32,623 bases of DNA from a virus. Position numbers and translations under genes: made by a program. The stretch covers positions 1 through 32,623 of the IMG/VR virus record IMGVR_UViG_3300044617_001318; one strand, 5' to 3'. This document shows positions 2,461-31,465 of the stretch, one piece after another. Positions within the stretch are counted from its first letter, which is position 1; every line of letters begins with the position of its first letter. The notes beneath the pieces are model-generated. The model made no database searches and was not told the DNA's origin. It worked only from the letters and a program-made list of their open reading frames with translations.

Positions 2461-2718
2461 ATGTCCAACACCAAACCCATTGGTGTGGCTTACGAGGATC
2501 AGGATCTCGACGATGCCATTATCGGCAAAGCACCAGCCCTTGGTGGCAAAGTCGGGTTCTACGGTACGACGCCGCTTACGCAGCGCGCCGCTGCCGCACA
2601 AGCGACCTCGCTTGTCGGCACGGCGTCTGCAACGGCTGTCGATACCAACCTCAAAGCTGCAATTATTGAAATCATGAACACCCTCCAAGCCATTGGCCTC
2701 TGGAAGGGTGCTGCTTGA
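2461..2718 (+). CDS. Head decoration/head-fibre-like protein, copy 1
   Basis: 85 residues starting 3 bp after the coat stop. The C-terminal 55 residues begin VGFYGTTP and end NTLQAIGLWKGAA, the layout of the short GFxG...LGL module found at the ends of phage head-fibre and decoration proteins. The N-terminal 30 residues are specific to this copy. The same module recurs in the next gene with 48 of 55 residues identical, so the two are tandem paralogues. The module probably forms a trimeric exposed domain. Being immediately after coat points to binding on the capsid surface. The family assignment is recognition from memory, not a search. Confidence 0.7.
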   Translation: MSNTKPIGVAYEDQDLDDAIIGKAPALGGKVGFYGTTPLTQRAAAAQATSLVGTASATAVDTNLKAAIIEIMNTLQAIGLWKGAA

Positions 2719-2733
2719 TAAAAGGAATCAATC

Positions 2734-3042
2734 ATGTCTATTCCCAAAGTCGGTGATGGTTACCAGGTCGGCGACGGCAACGTCAACGAGGAACTTGACG
2801 TAGGCCGTGGCGCGCAAGCGATCGCGGTCGGCGGCGCAAGCGCCTCGGTTAAGGTCGGCGCTACTGGTGGCGCGGTGGGCTTCTACGGTACGACCCCGAT
2901 CACCCTGCGCGCCAACTCGGCGCAGGCGACCTCGATCGTCGGCACCGCGTCGGCTACCGCTGTGGACACCAATCTGAAGGCTGCAATCATCGAGATCATG
3001 AATACGCTCTCGGCGGTCGGTCTTTGGAAAGGTGCTGCTTGA
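2734..3042 (+). CDS. Head decoration/head-fibre-like protein, copy 2
   Basis: 102 residues from ATG 2734, 15 bp after copy 1. The N-terminal 47 residues are Gly/Val/Ala-rich (VGDGYQVGDGNVNEELDVG), reading like a beta-structured anchor unlike the start of copy 1. The C-terminal 55 residues are the same GFYGTTP...GLWKGAA module with seven substitutions. The DNA of the module differs at many third positions, so the duplication is old and the protein has been conserved. Likely a second capsid-surface protein that could form mixed or alternative trimers with copy 1. Its final codons hold the SD (GGAAAGG) for the next gene. Confidence 0.7.
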   Translation: MSIPKVGDGYQVGDGNVNEELDVGRGAQAIAVGGASASVKVGATGGAVGFYGTTPITLRANSAQATSIVGTASATAVDTNLKAAIIEIMNTLSAVGLWKGAA

Positions 3043-22897: not shown

Positions 22898-23545
22898 ATG
22901 TCCAATCTCGTCAAGTTTGGTTCTGCTGGTCTTCCCGCCGTTCAAAACCTCGCCGCTTCCCTGCGTAAGCTCGAACAGGCAGCGCCCTCGGTCATGGTCA
23001 TCCTGAAGATGGACAAGACCGGGCACTGGGTGTTCGGCGCCGAGCAGGAGGAGGTCGAGAACGGCAGCCGCTGGGCGGTCAACCCGCTCTCGTTCGTGCA
23101 TGGTTACATCGCCTGGGGCAAGGGCGAGGCGCTGGGCGAGATGATGGCGCCCATCACCGATCCGTTGCCGGAGGTCGGCGTGCCGCCCGCAGGTGCGGAC
23201 CGCGGCTGGGAGATGCAGTTGGGGTTCTCCCTCAAGTGCATCTCGGGCGAAGACGCCGGCATGGAAGCCCGCTATTCGACGACTTCTGTCGGTGGCAAGC
23301 GGGCCGTGCAGCAGTTGGGGCTTGCCATCGCGACGCAGGTCGAGAAGGCGCCCGACCGCCCCGTGCCGGTCATCACGCTGGGCAAGGACTCGTACCAGCA
23401 CAAGAGCTACGGGCGCGTCTTCACGCCCGTGTTCGAGGTGCAGGAGTGGGTCAGCATGAACGGTGAGGAGCCGGCCGCAGAGGATGTCCAGCAGTCGGAC
23501 GCCCCTGAGGCAGCGCCCGCCCGTCGCGTGCGCCGCACAGCGTAA
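22898..23545 (+). CDS. Candidate ssDNA-binding protein (DUF2815 position)
   Basis: 215 residues from ATG 22898 after GGAG (8-base spacing). It has a beta-rich body (SVMVILKMDKTGHWVFGAEQEEV, WEMQLGFSLKCISGEDAGMEARYSTTSVGGKRAVQQLGLAIA) and a tail with an acidic stretch (EEPAAEDVQQSDAPEAAP) ending in RRVRRT. In many phages the gene between DUF2800 and PolA is DUF2815, a gp2.5-like single-strand binding protein. This sequence is the positional equivalent, but I cannot confirm an OB fold by eye. A basic rather than acidic tip is unusual for an SSB. It is followed directly by a strong hairpin. Confidence 0.55.
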   Translation: MSNLVKFGSAGLPAVQNLAASLRKLEQAAPSVMVILKMDKTGHWVFGAEQEEVENGSRWAVNPLSFVHGYIAWGKGEALGEMMAPITDPLPEVGVPPAGADRGWEMQLGFSLKCISGEDAGMEARYSTTSVGGKRAVQQLGLAIATQVEKAPDRPVPVITLGKDSYQHKSYGRVFTPVFEVQEWVSMNGEEPAAEDVQQSDAPEAAPARRVRRTA

Positions 23546-23561
23546 GCAGCACAGCAGGAGG

Positions 23562-23586
23562 AACGGGGGCTTGGCCCCCGTTTTTT
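23562..23586 (+). terminator. Hairpin with T-run between SSB-like gene and polymerase
   Basis: AACGGGGGC and GCCCCCGTT pair in a perfect 9-bp stem with a TTG loop, followed by a run of six Ts (23581-23586). It has the full form of a rightward intrinsic terminator but lies inside the replication operon. AGGAGG (23556-23561) sits immediately before it and the loop TTG (23571) is in frame with the polymerase, so it may act as an attenuator or translational control hairpin. Confidence 0.75.
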
Positions 23587-23591
23587 ATCAG

Positions 23592-25556
23592 ATGACCATC
23601 TGGCTTGATTTCGAAACCCGCTCCGGATGCGACCTGCCGCAGCGGGGCGTCTACACCTACGCCCGTCACCCGTCCACGCAGGTGCTCTGCATGGCGTGGG
23701 CGCTGGACGACGGCGAGGTCGAGCTCTGGACGCCCGAGCAGCCGTTCCCGCAAGCGGTCAGGGATGCCATCCAGAACATGGAGGCCATCCGCGCTCACAA
23801 CGCGGCGTTTGAGCGGCTCATCTTCTGGTACGTCCTGTGCCCTGACTTTGACGTGCCGGAACCAACGCTTGAGCAGTTCTATTGCACCGCAGCACAGGCG
23901 CGCGCCAACTGCGCGCCGGGCAGCCTCGAGGACGTCGGTCGGTTCGCGGGCGCGGCGATGAAGAAGGACCACCGCGGTGCAGCATTGGTCAGGAAGTGCT
24001 GCGTGCCGCCGTTCAAGCACACCGAGCAGGATCTGGCCGACTTGTTTGAGTACTGTCGCCAAGACGTGCGCGCGATGCGCGCCATCTCGCAGTCGCTGCG
24101 GCAGTTGTTGGAGGTCGAGCTTGCCGACTACCATGCCAACGAACGGATCAACGATCGCGGCATCCGGATCGACGTCGACCTAGCGGCCGCTGCGATGGCC
24201 TACGCGGCTCAAGAAACCCGCGAAATCCAAGCCCGAGTGCGCGAGGTGACCGAGGGCGCGGTGCCGACCGTGCGCTCGCCTGCCATGCGGGCGTGGGTGC
24301 TGGAGCGGCTCGGGCCGCAGGCGCGCAAACTAGCCGTGCGCTACAAGGGCGGCGAGGCCAAGGATTCGATCGACAAATCAGTGCGGGCGACCCTGTTGGC
24401 GCTCGCGGAGGAGAACCCCGATGAGGTACCGCCCGCTGTTGCCGAGGTCATCCAAGCCGCCGACGATGTCTGGGCGTCTGCGACTGCGAAGTTCGGCCGC
24501 TTCGCTGCCTTGGCTGATCCAGAGGACGCGCGCCTTAGAGGCGCATTTGTCTTCGCTGGAGGAGCAGCGACTGGCCGCGCTTCAAGCTACGGTGCTCAGG
24601 TTCACAACATCCCTCGAAAGTCCGCCAAAGATCCACTGACCGTGCGCGCTGCCATGATGCGCCGCGAGCCGCTCGCGCCCGCCTACGGTAAGCGCGTGAC
24701 GGACGTGCTGAAGCTCATGCTGCGACCGGCGCTGGTGCCTGCTGACGGGCACGTCTTCGTTGTGGCCGACTGGTCCGCGATCGAGGGCCGGGTCAATCCC
24801 TGGCTCGCGGCAAATGCGACGGGCGAGGCGAAGCTTGACGTGTTCCGACGTCGGCTTGACCCCTACAAGGTCAACGCAGCGGCGACCTATGGTGTCCAGT
24901 ATTTGGACGTCACCGACGACCAGAGGCAGGTCGGCAAGGTGCAGGAGCTTGCGCTAGGGTTCGGCGGGGGTGCGGGTGCGTTCGAGGCGATGGCGCGGGG
25001 CTACGGCGTGCGCCTGCCCGCCGATCAGGTCGAGCGCAGCGTGCGTGGCTGGCGCCACGCGAACCCGTGGGCGCCCGTGTTCTGGTCCGACCTCGAGCGG
25101 GCCTACTGGTCCGCGATGCGCCACCCTGGGGCCGAGTTCGACGCGGGGCGGGTCACCTACCTCTACGACGGCCAGACCCTCTGGTACGCGCTGCCTTCAG
25201 GCCGGGTGCTTTGTTACCCCTACGCCCGGATCGAGGGCGACGAGATCAGTTACGCCAAGGCGTCCTGGAAGCCGGCAGCCGACGCGAAAGGGTGGCCCCG
25301 CGCGCGGCTCTGGCGTGGGCTCGCGTGCGAGAACGTGACGCAGGCAGCCGCGCACGACGTCCTGCGCGAGGCGCTGCGCCGGCTCGACGGCGTGGTCGCG
25401 CACGTCCATGACGAGATCGTGCTGGAGGTGCCCGAGGGCGAGGCCGAAGAGGCCAAAGCGATGCTCGAACAAGTGATGACAACAGCGCCCGACTGGGCGG
25501 CGGGACTGCCGCTAGCAGTCGAAGCGAAAATCATGCCGAGGTATGGAAAGGCTTAA
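23592..25556 (+). CDS. Family A DNA polymerase with 3'-5' exonuclease
   Basis: 654 residues from ATG 23592. The exonuclease domain is intact: Exo I WLDFETRS (Asp6, Glu8), Exo II IRAHNAAFER (Asn70) and Exo III YCRQDVRAM (Asp158). The polymerase domain has motif A VVADWSAIEGRV (Asp393), motif B region RQVGKVQELALGFGGGAGAF, and motif C VVAHVHDEIVLEV (His606, Asp607, Glu608). Length and motif spacing fit the compact PolA-type enzymes of phages. It should copy the phage genome. The ATG has no SD. An in-frame TTG at 23571 lies 9 bases after AGGAGG and would add seven residues, so the true start may be there. The 3' end holds the SD for the HNH gene. Confidence 0.95.
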   Translation: MTIWLDFETRSGCDLPQRGVYTYARHPSTQVLCMAWALDDGEVELWTPEQPFPQAVRDAIQNMEAIRAHNAAFERLIFWYVLCPDFDVPEPTLEQFYCTAAQARANCAPGSLEDVGRFAGAAMKKDHRGAALVRKCCVPPFKHTEQDLADLFEYCRQDVRAMRAISQSLRQLLEVELADYHANERINDRGIRIDVDLAAAAMAYAAQETREIQARVREVTEGAVPTVRSPAMRAWVLERLGPQARKLAVRYKGGEAKDSIDKSVRATLLALAEENPDEVPPAVAEVIQAADDVWASATAKFGRFAALADPEDARLRGAFVFAGGAATGRASSYGAQVHNIPRKSAKDPLTVRAAMMRREPLAPAYGKRVTDVLKLMLRPALVPADGHVFVVADWSAIEGRVNPWLAANATGEAKLDVFRRRLDPYKVNAAATYGVQYLDVTDDQRQVGKVQELALGFGGGAGAFEAMARGYGVRLPADQVERSVRGWRHANPWAPVFWSDLERAYWSAMRHPGAEFDAGRVTYLYDGQTLWYALPSGRVLCYPYARIEGDEISYAKASWKPAADAKGWPRARLWRGLACENVTQAAAHDVLREALRRLDGVVAHVHDEIVLEVPEGEAEEAKAMLEQVMTTAPDWAAGLPLAVEAKIMPRYGKA

Positions 25557-25558
25557 TC

Positions 25559-25957
25559 ATGGAAATGTGGCTACCAGTTGTAGGTTTTGAAGGTTTGTAT
25601 GAAATCAGTGATCAAGGTGCAGTGCGGGCAATGCACCGCGAAGTGCCGTATGGCCGACACGGGAGAACTGTATACGCACAAAGGACATTGAAACAATTTG
25701 CATCAAAAAATGGTTACCCATCAGTAAAGCTTTCTTTTGCGGGCAAAACAAAAACGGCTTACGTTCATCAGCTAGTGACGCGCGCTTTTTTAGGCCCAAA
25801 GCCTGAAACCAGTCAAAAGATAGAAGTTCGGCATCTGAACGGAAATAAGCGAGACAACCGCGTGGAAAATTTGCGCTACGGCACAGTAAAAGAAAATGCG
25901 GGCGATAGGGTAAGGCACGCCGCAGAGCGTAAACATGCAGGAGGTAAGACAGCATGA
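25559..25957 (+). CDS. HNH homing endonuclease (NUMOD4 plus HNH_3)
   Basis: 132 residues from ATG 25559, 2 bp after the polymerase stop. Residues 1-55 are a NUMOD4-type DNA-binding segment (EMWLPVVGFEGLYEISDQGAVRA). Residues about 55-115 form the HNH nuclease: AYVHQLVTRAFLGPKP, VRHLNGNKRDNRVENLRYGTVKENAGD, with the His of VRHLNGN and the Asn pairs in place. The gene is visibly more AT-rich than both neighbours, which points to recent arrival. Such free-standing endonucleases cut sites in relatives lacking them and so spread. Its end carries AGGAGGT (25939-25945), the SD of the next gene, and overlaps its start by 4 bases. Confidence 0.92.
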   Translation: MEMWLPVVGFEGLYEISDQGAVRAMHREVPYGRHGRTVYAQRTLKQFASKNGYPSVKLSFAGKTKTAYVHQLVTRAFLGPKPETSQKIEVRHLNGNKRDNRVENLRYGTVKENAGDRVRHAAERKHAGGKTA

Positions 25958-28248
25958 ATGAAAAATTCGTCAACTGGCTGATCGCGCTCGCCCCGGAGGG
26001 CGAGACAGCGCTCTTCATCAAGCAGCGGGTCCGGTCGAACGGCAAGTCGACCTATGTGGCGCACCTGCCCGAGCGCTACCTCCGCTCGCCTGACGGCGCC
26101 TGGTACGGCAACACCGGCAGCTTCAAGCTTGAGCGGCTCGCGGCAGGCGTGCGGGTCACCCGCGAGAACATCGACTACGTGTTGCTGCTGATGCTGGATG
26201 ACATCGGCACGAAGAGCAGGACGCCCCCGATCGAGCCGACCTGGAAGATGGAAACCAGTCCGGGGAACCAGCAGTGGTGCTACGTCTTCCGCGCCGAGGA
26301 CGCGCCGACCAAGCAACTGTTCACCGCAGCGGTGGCGGCGATCGCGGCGGCGGGCTTCACCGACGAGGGCGCGACCAACTGCGTGAGAAATTTCAGGCTG
26401 CCGGGCAGTATCAACCTGAAGCCCGAGCGCAACGGTTTCGAGTCGCGCTTGGTCGAGTGGCACCCGACCCGCGAGTTCACGCTTGAGCAGATCATGGCGG
26501 CGCTCAACGTGCCAATGCCCGACCCGACCGCGCTCATCGACCCGGTGCTGGTCGACGACGGCGAGTCGGACGAGGTCATGCAGTGGCTGTCGGCCGAGGG
26601 GCTGTTGCTGGAGCGGCCGAATGCGGCGGGCTGGGCGGGCGTAACCTGCCCGAATGCAGAGCAGCACAGCAACGACGACATCGAGGGCCGCTACTTCCCT
26701 GCTAGCCGGGCCTATAAATGCCTGCATGGCCATTGTGCCGACTGGAACAGCGAGCGGTTCCTGCGTTGGGTCGAAGAGCAGGGCGGCCCGGCGCAGGGCT
26801 ACGGGCTGCGCGAAGAACTGGTCGCCGAGCGGATGCGCGCGGTGCGGGCCGCGCTGACGCCGACCGAGGCGTTCCCCGATCAGGCCGCGCAGACGATCGC
26901 CGAGGTCGAACGGCGCGAGGCCGGGCGGGTCGAAAAAGAGGGCTGGTACGAGCGCTTCGCCTACCTGCACGCTGATGACGGGTATTTCGACCTGGTGGCG
27001 CGCAAACAATACAGCCGGTCGAACTTCGACGCGGTCTTCCGGCACGTGCTTTGCCTTTCGATCCACGCGGCGCCTGGCAGCAAGAGCCGGCGCCGGATCG
27101 AGGCGTCGCGATCGTTTGACGAGAACCGGCAGGACATGGGCGCAAGAGTGCTGCAAGGCGTCACTTACGCGCCGGGCGAGGGCGTGCTGGTCGCGCGGGC
27201 GGGCGACGTCTATGCGAACTTGTGGCGCGACGCGCGGCCGGCGGGCGCTGCGGGCGACGCGACGCCGTGGCTGCGGCACGTCGAGCGGATGGTGCCTGAC
27301 GCGGCCGAGCGCGAGCACGTGCTCAATTGGATGGCGTTTAAGGTCCAGCGCTCAAACGTCAAGATCAATCACGGCGTGCTGCACGGCGGCTTTCCCGGCA
27401 GCGGGAAAGACACTATGTGGGAACCGTTCCTCTACGCGGTCGGCGGTGCGTCAAAGGAAAACATCGCGACCGTTAAGAACGAAGAATTGAATTCGCAATG
27501 GGGCTACAGTTTGATGAGCGAGGTGCTGGTCATCAACGAGCTGCGCCAGACTGAAGTGTCGGACCGGCGCGCGCTCGAGAACCGGCTGAAGCCCCTGCTG
27601 GCGGCGCCGCCTGAGCTTCTATCGGTGAACCGGAAGGGCTTGCACCCGTTCGACGCGCTGAACCGATTGAGCGTTGTCGCGTTCTCAAACGAACGCATGG
27701 CGATTACGCTGACGTCAGACGATCGGCGCTGGTTTGTTTTGTGGTCCGACGCCGGCAAGATGGACCCTGCGGAGGCCGAACGGCTCTGGCAATGGTATGA
27801 GAAGGGCGGCCGCGATATTGTCGCCGCTTGGCTGCGCGCGCGGGACGTGAGCGGGTTCCTGCCTGGCGCAGCGCCGACCATGACCGAGGCCAAGGCGATC
27901 ATGTTGCAGGCGGGCCTGTCGCCGGTCGAGTCAGCGCTTGTTGAGTTGATCAAAGGGCGGCACGGTGAGTTCGCCCTTGGCGCCGTGCAGGCGCCCTGGC
28001 AGGCGCTCTGCGACCGTTTGGCGGGCCTGATGCCCAACGGCTCGCGCGTGAGCGTTTATGCGCTCTTTCACGCGTTATCGGAGGCCGGCTGGTTGGACTG
28101 CGGGCGGGTCAAGACGCCCGAGCACGCAACGAAGACTCACATTATGTGCGCGCCCGAGATTTGGGAGCATTTCGCTGGCAATCGATCCGAGATCCGGCGC
28201 CTGTGCGAGCGCGCGCGGACGGGCGGTCCCTTGCGGGTTGTAGGCTGA
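25954..28248 (+). CDS. Primase-helicase (PrimPol-like N-terminus, DUF5906/VapE-like helicase)
   Basis: 764 residues from ATG 25954 (AGGAGGT, 8-base spacing). The N-terminal third resembles phage RepB/PrimPol-type primases, with VLLLMLDDIGTKSR as the likely metal-binding strand and later NCVRNFRLPGSINLKP. A Cys/His cluster follows (VTCPNAEQHSNDD... YKCLHGHCADW), probably zinc-binding. The helicase part has Walker A GFPGSGKDT (479-487, the KDT form typical of DUF5906), then EVLVINELRQTE as Walker B and a sensor-like VVAFSNERMAI. The protein should prime synthesis and unwind the fork for the upstream polymerase. The exact primase subfamily is uncertain. Confidence 0.88.
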   Translation: MNEKFVNWLIALAPEGETALFIKQRVRSNGKSTYVAHLPERYLRSPDGAWYGNTGSFKLERLAAGVRVTRENIDYVLLLMLDDIGTKSRTPPIEPTWKMETSPGNQQWCYVFRAEDAPTKQLFTAAVAAIAAAGFTDEGATNCVRNFRLPGSINLKPERNGFESRLVEWHPTREFTLEQIMAALNVPMPDPTALIDPVLVDDGESDEVMQWLSAEGLLLERPNAAGWAGVTCPNAEQHSNDDIEGRYFPASRAYKCLHGHCADWNSERFLRWVEEQGGPAQGYGLREELVAERMRAVRAALTPTEAFPDQAAQTIAEVERREAGRVEKEGWYERFAYLHADDGYFDLVARKQYSRSNFDAVFRHVLCLSIHAAPGSKSRRRIEASRSFDENRQDMGARVLQGVTYAPGEGVLVARAGDVYANLWRDARPAGAAGDATPWLRHVERMVPDAAEREHVLNWMAFKVQRSNVKINHGVLHGGFPGSGKDTMWEPFLYAVGGASKENIATVKNEELNSQWGYSLMSEVLVINELRQTEVSDRRALENRLKPLLAAPPELLSVNRKGLHPFDALNRLSVVAFSNERMAITLTSDDRRWFVLWSDAGKMDPAEAERLWQWYEKGGRDIVAAWLRARDVSGFLPGAAPTMTEAKAIMLQAGLSPVESALVELIKGRHGEFALGAVQAPWQALCDRLAGLMPNGSRVSVYALFHALSEAGWLDCGRVKTPEHATKTHIMCAPEIWEHFAGNRSEIRRLCERARTGGPLRVVG

Positions 28249-28295: not shown

Positions 28296-28358
28296 TCACA
28301 AGCGTAGCATGACTGCCAGCAGCGCGGCAAGCAGCGCGATCAGGGCAGCGGTGATCAT
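28296..28358 (-). CDS. Possible 20-residue membrane peptide
   Basis: ATG 28358 overlaps the clamp-like gene's stop (ATGA) and opens a 20-codon frame encoding MITAALIALLAALLAVMLRL, a single hydrophobic helix ending in Arg. An earlier in-frame ATG at 28370 would add four residues. No strong SD is visible, so expression would depend on coupling to the upstream gene. It is followed by the operon terminator. It is too short to judge by coding statistics and could be chance. Confidence 0.3.
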   Translation of the reverse strand: MITAALIALLAALLAVMLRL

Positions 28359-28954
28359 GCCGTCACCCATGCCGGCACGGCGGCCTCATCTGCGCGCCAT
28401 GACATTACCAAGCCGAAGAACTCCGGCAGCGCGTCGCACGTCACAATGCACGGCTGTTGCCCGCGCTGGCTGTAGCAGGGCTGCGCGTTGTCGGCGCCTG
28501 ATGCGGTCTTGATGCACGCGTGCAGGCGCTCGAGCAGCGCCGGATTGAACTGCGCCATTTCGACTGGCGCGGCAAGCGCTTTGCGCGTGACGTGATCGGT
28601 GTCGGGGAATTTACCGTCGACGGGCGTCAGCGTGTGCGTGACCGTGCCGTCGACGATCGTCACCCGGTTAGCGCTGGTGTCGACCGTGACAGTCAGGATG
28701 TCATCAAGGGTCCGCTTCCCGCCAGCGATCACCGGCTTTAGCGCTTCCAGCGGCAGAATGATGCTGACCGGCGTGCTGACGGCGGCGGGGCTCACCCGCA
28801 GGCGCGCGAGCGCGTGACCGTCGGTCGCTTCCAGAATGATCCCGCGCGGGTCCGCGCGGACATGCACGCCGAGCAGGTGATAGCGCACGTCGACGGTCGG
28901 CGCGCAAGACGCGATCGCGCGCAGCGCGCGCCTGGTGACAGTGAAATCGAACAT
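28355..28954 (-). CDS. DnaN-like sliding clamp, shortened
   Basis: 199 residues from ATG 28954. The sequence aligns by eye with domain II of bacterial beta clamps: RALRAIASCAPTVDVRYHLLGVHV (compare the DVRYYLNGM segment of E. coli DnaN), GIILEATDGHALARL (ATDGHRLA) and LTPVDGKFPDTDHV (VDGRFPDYRRV). A short domain III-like remainder ends EFFGLVMSWR. Domain I is missing and domain III is abbreviated, so the protein is just over half of normal length (about 366) and near T4 gp45 size. It could form a clamp on phage DNA or interfere with the host one. The homology is clear to me from motifs; activity is not shown. Confidence 0.72.
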   Translation of the reverse strand: MFDFTVTRRALRAIASCAPTVDVRYHLLGVHVRADPRGIILEATDGHALARLRVSPAAVSTPVSIILPLEALKPVIAGGKRTLDDILTVTVDTSANRVTIVDGTVTHTLTPVDGKFPDTDHVTRKALAAPVEMAQFNPALLERLHACIKTASGADNAQPCYSQRGQQPCIVTCDALPEFFGLVMSWRADEAAVPAWVTA

Positions 28955-28956
28955 GA

Positions 28957-29283
28957 TTAAACCCCTTCGTTGGTGGTCGGAACTGTGAGCCCGCGCGCGA
29001 TCGCGTCGCGGGCCTCATAGACGGCGTGCGGCACGTTGACCGGGTTGCCAGTGAGCGCGTCATCGAGCAGCGCGAGCGCGTCGCGCGCTGCGGCCAGCAG
29101 CTCGGCCGGGTCGACGCCGTCGACCGTGAGCGCGGGCCGCGTGCGGATGAGCGAGTCACCGAACACGGTGACGCTGGCCGACCGGACGGCGCGGTCGGGC
29201 CCGTAGAGTTCGATCTCGAGATGGTCACGGTTACGGGTCAGCGCGACGCGCGCGACGCCGTGAGCGAAGGCAGTAGTGATCAT
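28957..29283 (-). CDS. Hypothetical protein (108 aa) before the clamp gene
   Basis: 108 residues from ATG 29283 with AAAGG upstream, ending 2 bp before the clamp-like start. The first half is beta-like (ARVALTRNRDHLEIELYGPDRAVRSASVTVFG), the second helical (DPAELLAAARDALALLDDAL). The tight spacing suggests that it is made with the clamp-like protein and might act with it. No family recognised. Confidence 0.6.
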   Translation of the reverse strand: MITTAFAHGVARVALTRNRDHLEIELYGPDRAVRSASVTVFGDSLIRTRPALTVDGVDPAELLAAARDALALLDDALTGNPVNVPHAVYEARDAIARGLTVPTTNEGV

Positions 29284-30075: not shown

Positions 30076-30741
30076 TCAGGTAGCAAGCTTGATATCGATC
30101 GTGCGCTTGCGCGTGCCGTGGGCGGGGAAGCCCACGATGGCGTCGCGCTGGCGCGCGCACAATTGGCAAGTCGCGCAGGACACGTCGTCGCGCTGGGTGG
30201 CCGGACACACGACGACGCGACGGCCAGCGGGCGTGCGCGTATTGTCGGTCGCGTCTGACGGCAGCACGACGACGACCGGACCGGCGCCGGTATCGGCGAG
30301 CGTATCGGCGTCGCGCAGGTCGTTTGCTGACAGGTTGATCGTAAATCCCCATTGATTGGCGTGCCGAATCCAGGTCAGCGAGTCAGCGTCGCGATAGTGC
30401 GAATAGGTGAACCCGCGACGGCCGGTATTGGCAGCGACCAGTTGACCCAGCGCGACAGGGTCGACCGTGCGCCCGTCACCGGGCAGGTCGCCGGCTTGAT
30501 TGTGGCGCCACAATTGGCCGTCGGGCAGGTCGGCAATGGCGCCGACGAACGTCGACCAATCAGTGCCACGGGCGCCCGATGAGACGGCGGACCAATGAAG
30601 CGCGAGCGGGCCGGATGCAGCGTAGCATCCCTCGCGCATCGCGCAGTCGACCGGACACGTGGCGCGCGTCGTCGTTGATACGGGAATCGGACCGGTTTTC
30701 GAATTAGCAGAGCGGGGCGACAGGTGGACAGTGTATGACAT
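30076..30741 (-). CDS. Cysteine-rich GP88-like phage protein
   Basis: 221 residues from ATG 30741; the frame runs back to 30825, but this ATG gives the familiar start MSYTVHLSPRSANSKTGPIPVSTT. A cysteine group CPVDCAMREGCYA follows, then HWSAVSSGARGTDW, PDGQLWRHNQAGDLPG and RRGFTYSHY, and near the end CPATQRDDVSCATCQLC. I recognise this as a conserved phage protein related to the GP88/DUF7227 group, whose cysteine layout recalls iron-sulphur or radical-SAM-like proteins. No SAM-binding function has been shown as far as I know. It is the first gene of the leftward operon. Confidence 0.6.
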   Translation of the reverse strand: MSYTVHLSPRSANSKTGPIPVSTTTRATCPVDCAMREGCYAASGPLALHWSAVSSGARGTDWSTFVGAIADLPDGQLWRHNQAGDLPGDGRTVDPVALGQLVAANTGRRGFTYSHYRDADSLTWIRHANQWGFTINLSANDLRDADTLADTGAGPVVVVLPSDATDNTRTPAGRRVVVCPATQRDDVSCATCQLCARQRDAIVGFPAHGTRKRTIDIKLAT

Positions 30742-30796
30742 GGTAGTTGACCTTTGGGGTAGTCGGGTTTTGCTTGATGAAGTGTTGCAAGCACGA

Positions 30797-30825
30797 ACGC
30801 TACAGACTTTGCTGCAGGTTGTCAA
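30797..30825 (-). promoter_or_regulatory. Putative promoter of the GP88-like/clamp operon
   Basis: On the minus strand TTGACA (30820-30825), a 17-base spacer and TAGCGT (30797-30802) precede the ATG at 30741, leaving a leader of about 50 bases. As at the other leftward promoter, the -35 is consensus and the -10 is poor, which suggests shared control. Confidence 0.5.
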
Positions 30826-31207: not shown

Positions 31208-31227
31208 CGGCGCGCTACCAGGACGGC

Positions 31228-31318
31228 GGTCGGCGGTCGGCGGTCGGCGGTCGGCGGTCGGCGGTCGGCGGTCGGCGGTCGGCGGTCGGCGGTCGGCGGT
31301 CGGCGGTCGGCGGTCGGC
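31228..31318 (+). repeat. (GGTCGGC)13 tandem array
   Basis: Thirteen perfect copies of the 7-mer GGTCGGC fill 91 bases without a mismatch. A fourteenth copy with one change (GGACGGC) precedes it at 31221-31227. The array is free of stop codons in all frames only because of its sequence, so the open frames across it are artefacts. Confidence 0.95.
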
Positions 31319-31440
31319 GCGCAGCTCGGCCGCGCCAGCGCGAGGCCAGCGCCGGCGAGCCCCCGGGGTAGGGCCGACGCGCCGGCAGGTCAAAATCGGA
31401 AGGGTCGCAAACATTTTTATTTTTTACGCTGACTGCCACA

Positions 31441-31461
31441 CCCCACACCCCACACCCCACA
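31441..31461 (+). repeat. (CCCCACA)3 tandem array
   Basis: Three perfect copies of CCCCACA, preceded by the degenerate TGCCACA (31434-31440) and followed by CCACTACACA. The unit length equals that of the upstream array, though the sequence differs. Confidence 0.8.
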
Positions 31462-31465
31462 CCAC

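Follow-up and report, generated by a model that had tools for sequence, protein, structure and literature searches.

The bacterial beta sliding clamp, DnaN (PF02767; TIGR00663), has three domains and is about 366 amino acids long. All known bacterial clamp partners dock in one pocket on this protein (2024 review PMC11139829). Subsite I of the pocket is made up of R152, L155, T172, G174, H175, R176, L177, P242, R246, V247, V360 and M362, and subsite II of H175, N320, Y323, V344, M362, P363, M364 and R365 (PMC11139829). The beta dimer is held together by I78, F106, I272 and L273 along with several charged residues, and monomeric beta cannot support processive Pol III synthesis (PMC11139829). The delta subunit of the loader, however, binds monomeric beta about 50 times more tightly than it does the dimer (PMC11139829). 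Phages may encode full-length clamps of their own (PHROG 947; about 368 positions, three domains), and a further group of phage proteins, PHROG 3007 and 12598, is mostly only 170-230 amino acids in length.

In this report, we find that a gene in the window, by which we mean the whole 32.6-kb virus record analyzed, encodes a beta-clamp derivative of the latter kind. The gene occurs once in the window, and its product shares the architecture of PHROG 3007/12598 and belongs there, although its identity to members other than its close relatives is about 19-32%. The gene and its two parts are:

28355..28954 (-): clamp-like gene, ATG at 28954 and stop at 28355; 199 aa, derived from domain II and the second half of domain III of a beta clamp
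28589..28945 (-): equivalent of domain II; residues 4-122, corresponding to about 128-247 of E. coli beta
28394..28561 (-): equivalent of the second half of domain III (IIIB); residues 132-187, corresponding to about 318-365 of E. coli beta

The clamp fold, which an earlier note had proposed from the nucleotide sequence, is borne out by searches of several kinds. The Pfam model of domain II (DNA_pol3_beta_2, PF02767) matches residues 8-118 above its gathering score (E=3.4e-7); the Pfam models of domains I and III have no match in the protein. PHROG 3007 matches residues 4-189 of 199 (E=6.8e-21), and the processivity factors of PHROG 947 match through domain II homology (E=1e-15). A phmmer search of the PDB returned beta clamps only (best 4e-5), and a profile built from 51 relatives (alignment A3) matched beta clamps at 9e-30. 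The AlphaFold2 model (mean pLDDT 94.8, pTM 0.89) was likewise matched by Foldseek to beta clamps, with E about 1e-10 and a query TM of about 0.65-0.72; for short phage homologues in BFVD, the best superpositions are at about 3 A. Thus, profile searches and the predicted fold, which had been set beforehand as the places where the idea might fail, both gave clamp matches. Further, the gene is under purifying selection: its dN/dS relative to the nearest relatives is 0.19-0.27, and we therefore regard it as a selected protein, not a chance open reading frame. It is nonetheless no ordinary DnaN, as its score against the equivalog model TIGR00663 is 33.6 bits vs a cut-off of 137.65.

The anatomy of the protein is domain II followed directly by half-domain IIIB, with neither domain I nor half-domain IIIA (about 253-317 of beta). 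Positions 14-126 of the A3 profile align to 143-252 of Pseudomonas beta and positions 132-185 to 318-366, such that about 253-317 is skipped. The AlphaFold2 model has a complete domain II (two beta-alpha-beta3 units, the first channel helix shortened), a linker helix and, after that, a helix with three strands. In a long HMMER alignment made as a single stretch, the C-terminus had seemed to fall in half IIIA. This placement was ruled out when 77 full-length DnaNs were divided into their six half-domains and each was scored with a model of the C-terminal part. The reference set was chromosomal dnaN, which made up most of what a scan of genome contigs returned. IIIB was the best match in 77/77 (median 25.8 bits), vs a maximum of 0.2 bits for IIIA. 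With a single DnaN, hhalign aligned domain II alone. The Foldseek superposition of the model on beta has an overall rmsd of 7-8 A, which suggests that half-domain IIIB is shifted relative to beta; its placement may therefore differ, and with it the shape of the pocket. A homologue from Dhillonvirus is also confidently predicted (pLDDT 93.4) and also matches beta clamps among PDB structures; its model is missing the second channel helix of domain II. Of the earlier description of a two-domain clamp without domain I, then, the absence of domain I stands, whereas the protein has one and a half domains instead of two.

A comparison with DnaN reveals what was kept and what was discarded. The fold and sequence of domain II, the second half of domain III and all of the pocket positions are held in common; domain I, half IIIA and the dimer interface are missing from the short clamp. 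Every pocket position listed above falls in the parts that the family retains, and the dimer residues I78, F106, R103, I272, L273, E298 and E304 are all in the deleted parts. Four elements of the pocket are readily located in the window:

28868..28891 (-): pocket element 1, DVRYHLLG (beta D150-G157), holding pocket residues R152 and L155
28808..28825 (-): pocket element 2, TDGHAL (beta T172-L177)
28589..28618 (-): pocket element 3, DGKFPDTDHV (beta D238-V247), with P242, His for R246, and V247
28394..28405 (-): pocket element 4, MSWR (beta M362-R365)

The last of these reads MPxR in most of the family; the window copy has Ser for P363, and its near relatives have Pro. Across the family, conservation is high at P242 (100%), at R152, L155, T172 and G174 (98% each), and at M362 (96%), P363 (92%) and R365 (88%). 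Where DnaN itself is conserved to 90% or more, the DnaN residue recurs in the family at a frequency of 0.78 for pocket positions and 0.47 for the others (p=0.001, from permutations that ignore relatedness among members). The difference persists when the region of the search motif is left out (0.77 vs 0.42, p=0.0009). In reading these figures, it should be borne in mind that many pocket residues are also structural and that family members are not independent samples. The window copy keeps 12 of 16 scored pocket positions, having drifted at R176A, R246H, Y323L and P363S. We also note that a variable tail with a P-x-W motif follows the MPxR strand in 21 of 59 members (VPAWVTA in the window, 28358-28396); it is possibly an extra docking peptide or one that occludes the protein's own pocket.

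The channel-facing surface has been treated less kindly. The first channel helix is four residues, or one turn, shorter in the family than in beta, and the second has been lost from the Dhillonvirus and Kagunavirus members. R137 is replaced by Ala, Ser or Gly in almost all family members, and K198, invariant in the DnaN set, by Asp or Glu in 37 of 52. Despite these losses, the net charge of the channel helices is unchanged on average. Lost DNA-facing charge was accordingly ruled out as proof against DNA contact, and the short clamp could still touch DNA.

The family is widespread. Copies sharing 87-90% identity with the window protein were found in five viral contigs, one of the copies being partial and cut by the contig end. 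A broader search yielded 59 non-redundant members, a few longer or atypical ones (e.g. L113) being left out of the conservation counts. Against sequenced phages, tblastn with the EP23 homologue returned 275 records and with the Bcep781 homologue 224; some of the weakest matches are full-length clamps, and relatives are present in about 270 sequenced phage records. The bearers include Dhillonvirus, Kagunavirus, Skatevirus (BASEL phages Bas77-81; PMC11990801), Bcep781 and BcepC6B. Gene position varies among them, and some of the proteins are without the second channel helix. One side observation concerns the Skatevirus Bas80 (L010:11900-12480), in which an in-frame stop interrupts the clamp-like frame and two hypothetical proteins are annotated; the frame is intact in its relatives.

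These proteins already bear names, with "DNA polymerase III beta subunit" at one extreme and "RusA-like Holliday junction resolvase" at the other. Named members are Bcep781 gp15 ("DNA Pol III b subunit fragment"), EP23 p08 and BcepC6B gp31, and a Kagunavirus member is annotated "DNA polymerase III sliding clamp". The RusA-like label is found in, e.g., NC_016566.1, NC_054651.1 and NC_048112.1, and has spread to many phage records. We considered this assignment and rejected it: none of the 51 A3 members has a RusA Pfam match, all 51 match the DnaN central domain, and the structure matches are to beta clamps. Bcep781, moreover, has a separate RusA, gp22. The label on PHROG 3007 and 12598 is thus unsupported, and the proteins are beta-clamp derivatives. 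In the open-access literature we found annotations of short phage clamps and no paper studying the family, nor did we find there the exact anatomy or the contrast between pocket and ring. The window gene is therefore a new member of a family that is already annotated and, in that literature, unstudied.

If the short clamp retains a partner-binding pocket, what might occupy it? A search for phage-encoded candidates returned little. No separate clamp domain I scored above the cut-off in 39 records with the clamp-like gene, and on this ground we rejected a split clamp with domain I elsewhere in them; the lone sub-threshold match (14.5 bits) is to a frame of 224 aa, similar in length to the short protein of its contig. 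Pol III alpha, another conceivable partner, is absent from the 36 records searched for it. A PolA was found in 18 of the 39 records, and 21 had no match, some of these being fragments. A scan of 56 PolA sequences found no canonical clamp-binding motif, its only loose matches being near the N-terminus, and no such motif recurs in a neighboring phage protein family. A conserved docking motif in phage PolA or neighbors was therefore discarded as an explanation. With the motif missing from the phage proteins examined, the host is the most likely source of partners.

We propose that the short clamp is a sliding-clamp derivative cut down to the fold that bears the partner-binding pocket and forming no beta-type dimer ring, which the missing domain I and half IIIA make impossible. 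It would be a soluble, probably monomeric protein whose pocket would still bind the QLxLF-type motifs of replication and repair proteins, chiefly those of the host; candidate targets are the loader delta subunit, Pol III alpha and epsilon, Hda, MutS, ligase and Pol I. By competing with host beta, as a competitor or an adaptor, it would hinder host replication or repair, or else bring host proteins to phage DNA. Given the roughly 50-fold preference of delta for monomeric beta, a pocket protein without a ring would compete strongly. The pocket is kept, the ring parts are gone, the channel is decaying, and the lineages include those with and without PolA; a non-encircling binder of clamp motifs fits this combination best, and we put the chance that it is correct at about even. 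Among the alternatives in the earlier note was a decoy for the host clamp loader or clamp partners, and the note was right to name it, although the function itself is one that we infer.

The foremost competing explanation draws on the gene neighborhood. The relevant neighbors in the window are:

28957..29283 (-): gene for a 108-aa protein of unknown function, on the same strand as the clamp-like gene and 2 bp upstream of it
25954..28248 (+): primase/helicase (RepB-type primase and DUF5906), convergent with the clamp-like gene
23463..25556 (+): PolA-type DNA polymerase, identified by Pfam and PHROGs, without a canonical clamp-binding motif

The 108-aa gene is a probable operon partner; among the loci examined, it occurs only in the five nearest relatives. 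The PolA-type polymerase reported earlier for this phage is indeed present, and the clamp-like gene lies beside its cassette, which comprises a DUF2800 exonuclease, an SSB-like protein (so called because of the gene order in relatives), PolA and the primase/helicase. VRR-NUC, C5-methylase and SNF2 helicase genes are on the other strand from this cassette. Such a neighborhood recurs in many viral contigs. A DUF7227 protein (30079-30825 (-), E=9e-85) recurs near the clamp-like gene in several viral contigs (L068, L070, L121). Elsewhere, the window contains a perfect 7-bp tandem repeat, CGGCGGT, in 13.7 copies (31224-31319), a second 7-bp array, CCACACC x4 (31436-31463), and two adjoining ORFs of 85 and 102 aa (2461-3042) that look like a tandem duplication, their C-terminal halves (GTASATAVDTNLKAAIIEIMNTL...GLWKGAA) being nearly identical.

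By analogy with thioredoxin and T7 polymerase, the short clamp might be an accessory of PolA, binding the phage polymerase directly or via DNA and raising its processivity without encircling. The gene is at the end of the primase-polA cassette in the window and in many soil contigs, 6-8 bp after polA in Acinetobacter-type viral contigs, adjacent to polA in BcepC6B, and after polA and before VRR-NUC at several loci. Representatives of Dhillonvirus, Kagunavirus and Bcep781 encode PolA as well, but there the clamp-like gene lies within the head genes, on the opposite strand and a long way from polA. The protein is not tied to PolA, since about half of the bearing records have no PolA match, Skatevirus Bas80 with its complete genome among them. 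The 56 PolA sequences also lack a canonical docking motif. The statement in the earlier note that PolA enzymes normally do not use beta was too strong in view of the listing of Pol I among bacterial clamp partners (PMC9690074). We nevertheless consider an accessory role unlikely for the family at large; in the Acinetobacter/BcepC6B group, where the gene directly follows or adjoins polA, the pocket could have a phage partner instead of a host one.

Other neighbors hint at counter-defense. The short clamp may bind beta-docking host enzymes, or recruit a phage modification enzyme, and thereby protect phage DNA. In the Shigella phage EP23, a Dhillonvirus (L009:9977-11335), a gene for Nmad5 (E=2e-58) directly follows the clamp-like gene on the same strand, and this DNA-modification gene is the reported trigger of Tmn immunity in Dhillonvirus (PMC11846954). 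The Skatevirus neighbors are a C5-methylase and a ParB-like protein, and other phages have RdgC or the anti-restriction protein ArdC. These neighbors vary by lineage, however, and the association may mark only an early or accessory gene position. In the window, 7 kb separate the C5-methylase from the clamp-like gene. A helper of this kind seems to us rather doubtful.

Less probable again is a homo-oligomeric ring around DNA, be it a trimer of about two domains per chain, which the earlier note had raised on the model of gp45 and PCNA, or a tetramer with 12 half-domains. Subunits of two or three domains do make up six-domain rings (PMC9690074), pairing of half-domains across subunits is conceivable, and the channel-helix charge is retained on average. 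T4 gp45 and PCNA also share with the window protein a short subunit and the clamp fold. A gp45-like trimer, however, requires two complete domains per subunit along with undamaged channel helices. The short clamp has 1.5 domains per chain, its best fold and sequence matches are to beta clamps, the interface residues of half IIIA (I272, L273, E298, E304) and all of domain I are missing, and, of the channel helices, one has lost a turn in every member and another is absent in Dhillonvirus and Kagunavirus. In addition, we noticed no clamp loader in the Pfam and PHROGs annotations of the window ORFs. The trimer is thus disfavored.

Finally, the shortened sequence and the stop in the Bas80 copy might suggest a non-functional remnant of a captured dnaN, but the low dN/dS, the common architecture of the non-redundant members and of hundreds of phages, and the confident folds refute this for the family as a whole and leave it barely credible, even if a single copy could be dead.

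With the non-encircling pocket protein as the preferred reading, a broader proposal can be made, albeit tentatively and with somewhat less assurance: many phage genera may carry a ring-less, pocket-only mimic of the host clamp that captures host clamp-binding proteins as a means of replication take-over. Clamp mimicry as such a strategy is not described in the open-access literature that we searched. The anatomy of the short clamp in any event corrects the "RusA-like Holliday junction resolvase" label in many phage records. If the proposal is true, it would define a strategy by which common laboratory coliphages take over replication, and a natural protein that keeps the pocket and drops the ring would be both a tool and a lead for blocking bacterial replication.
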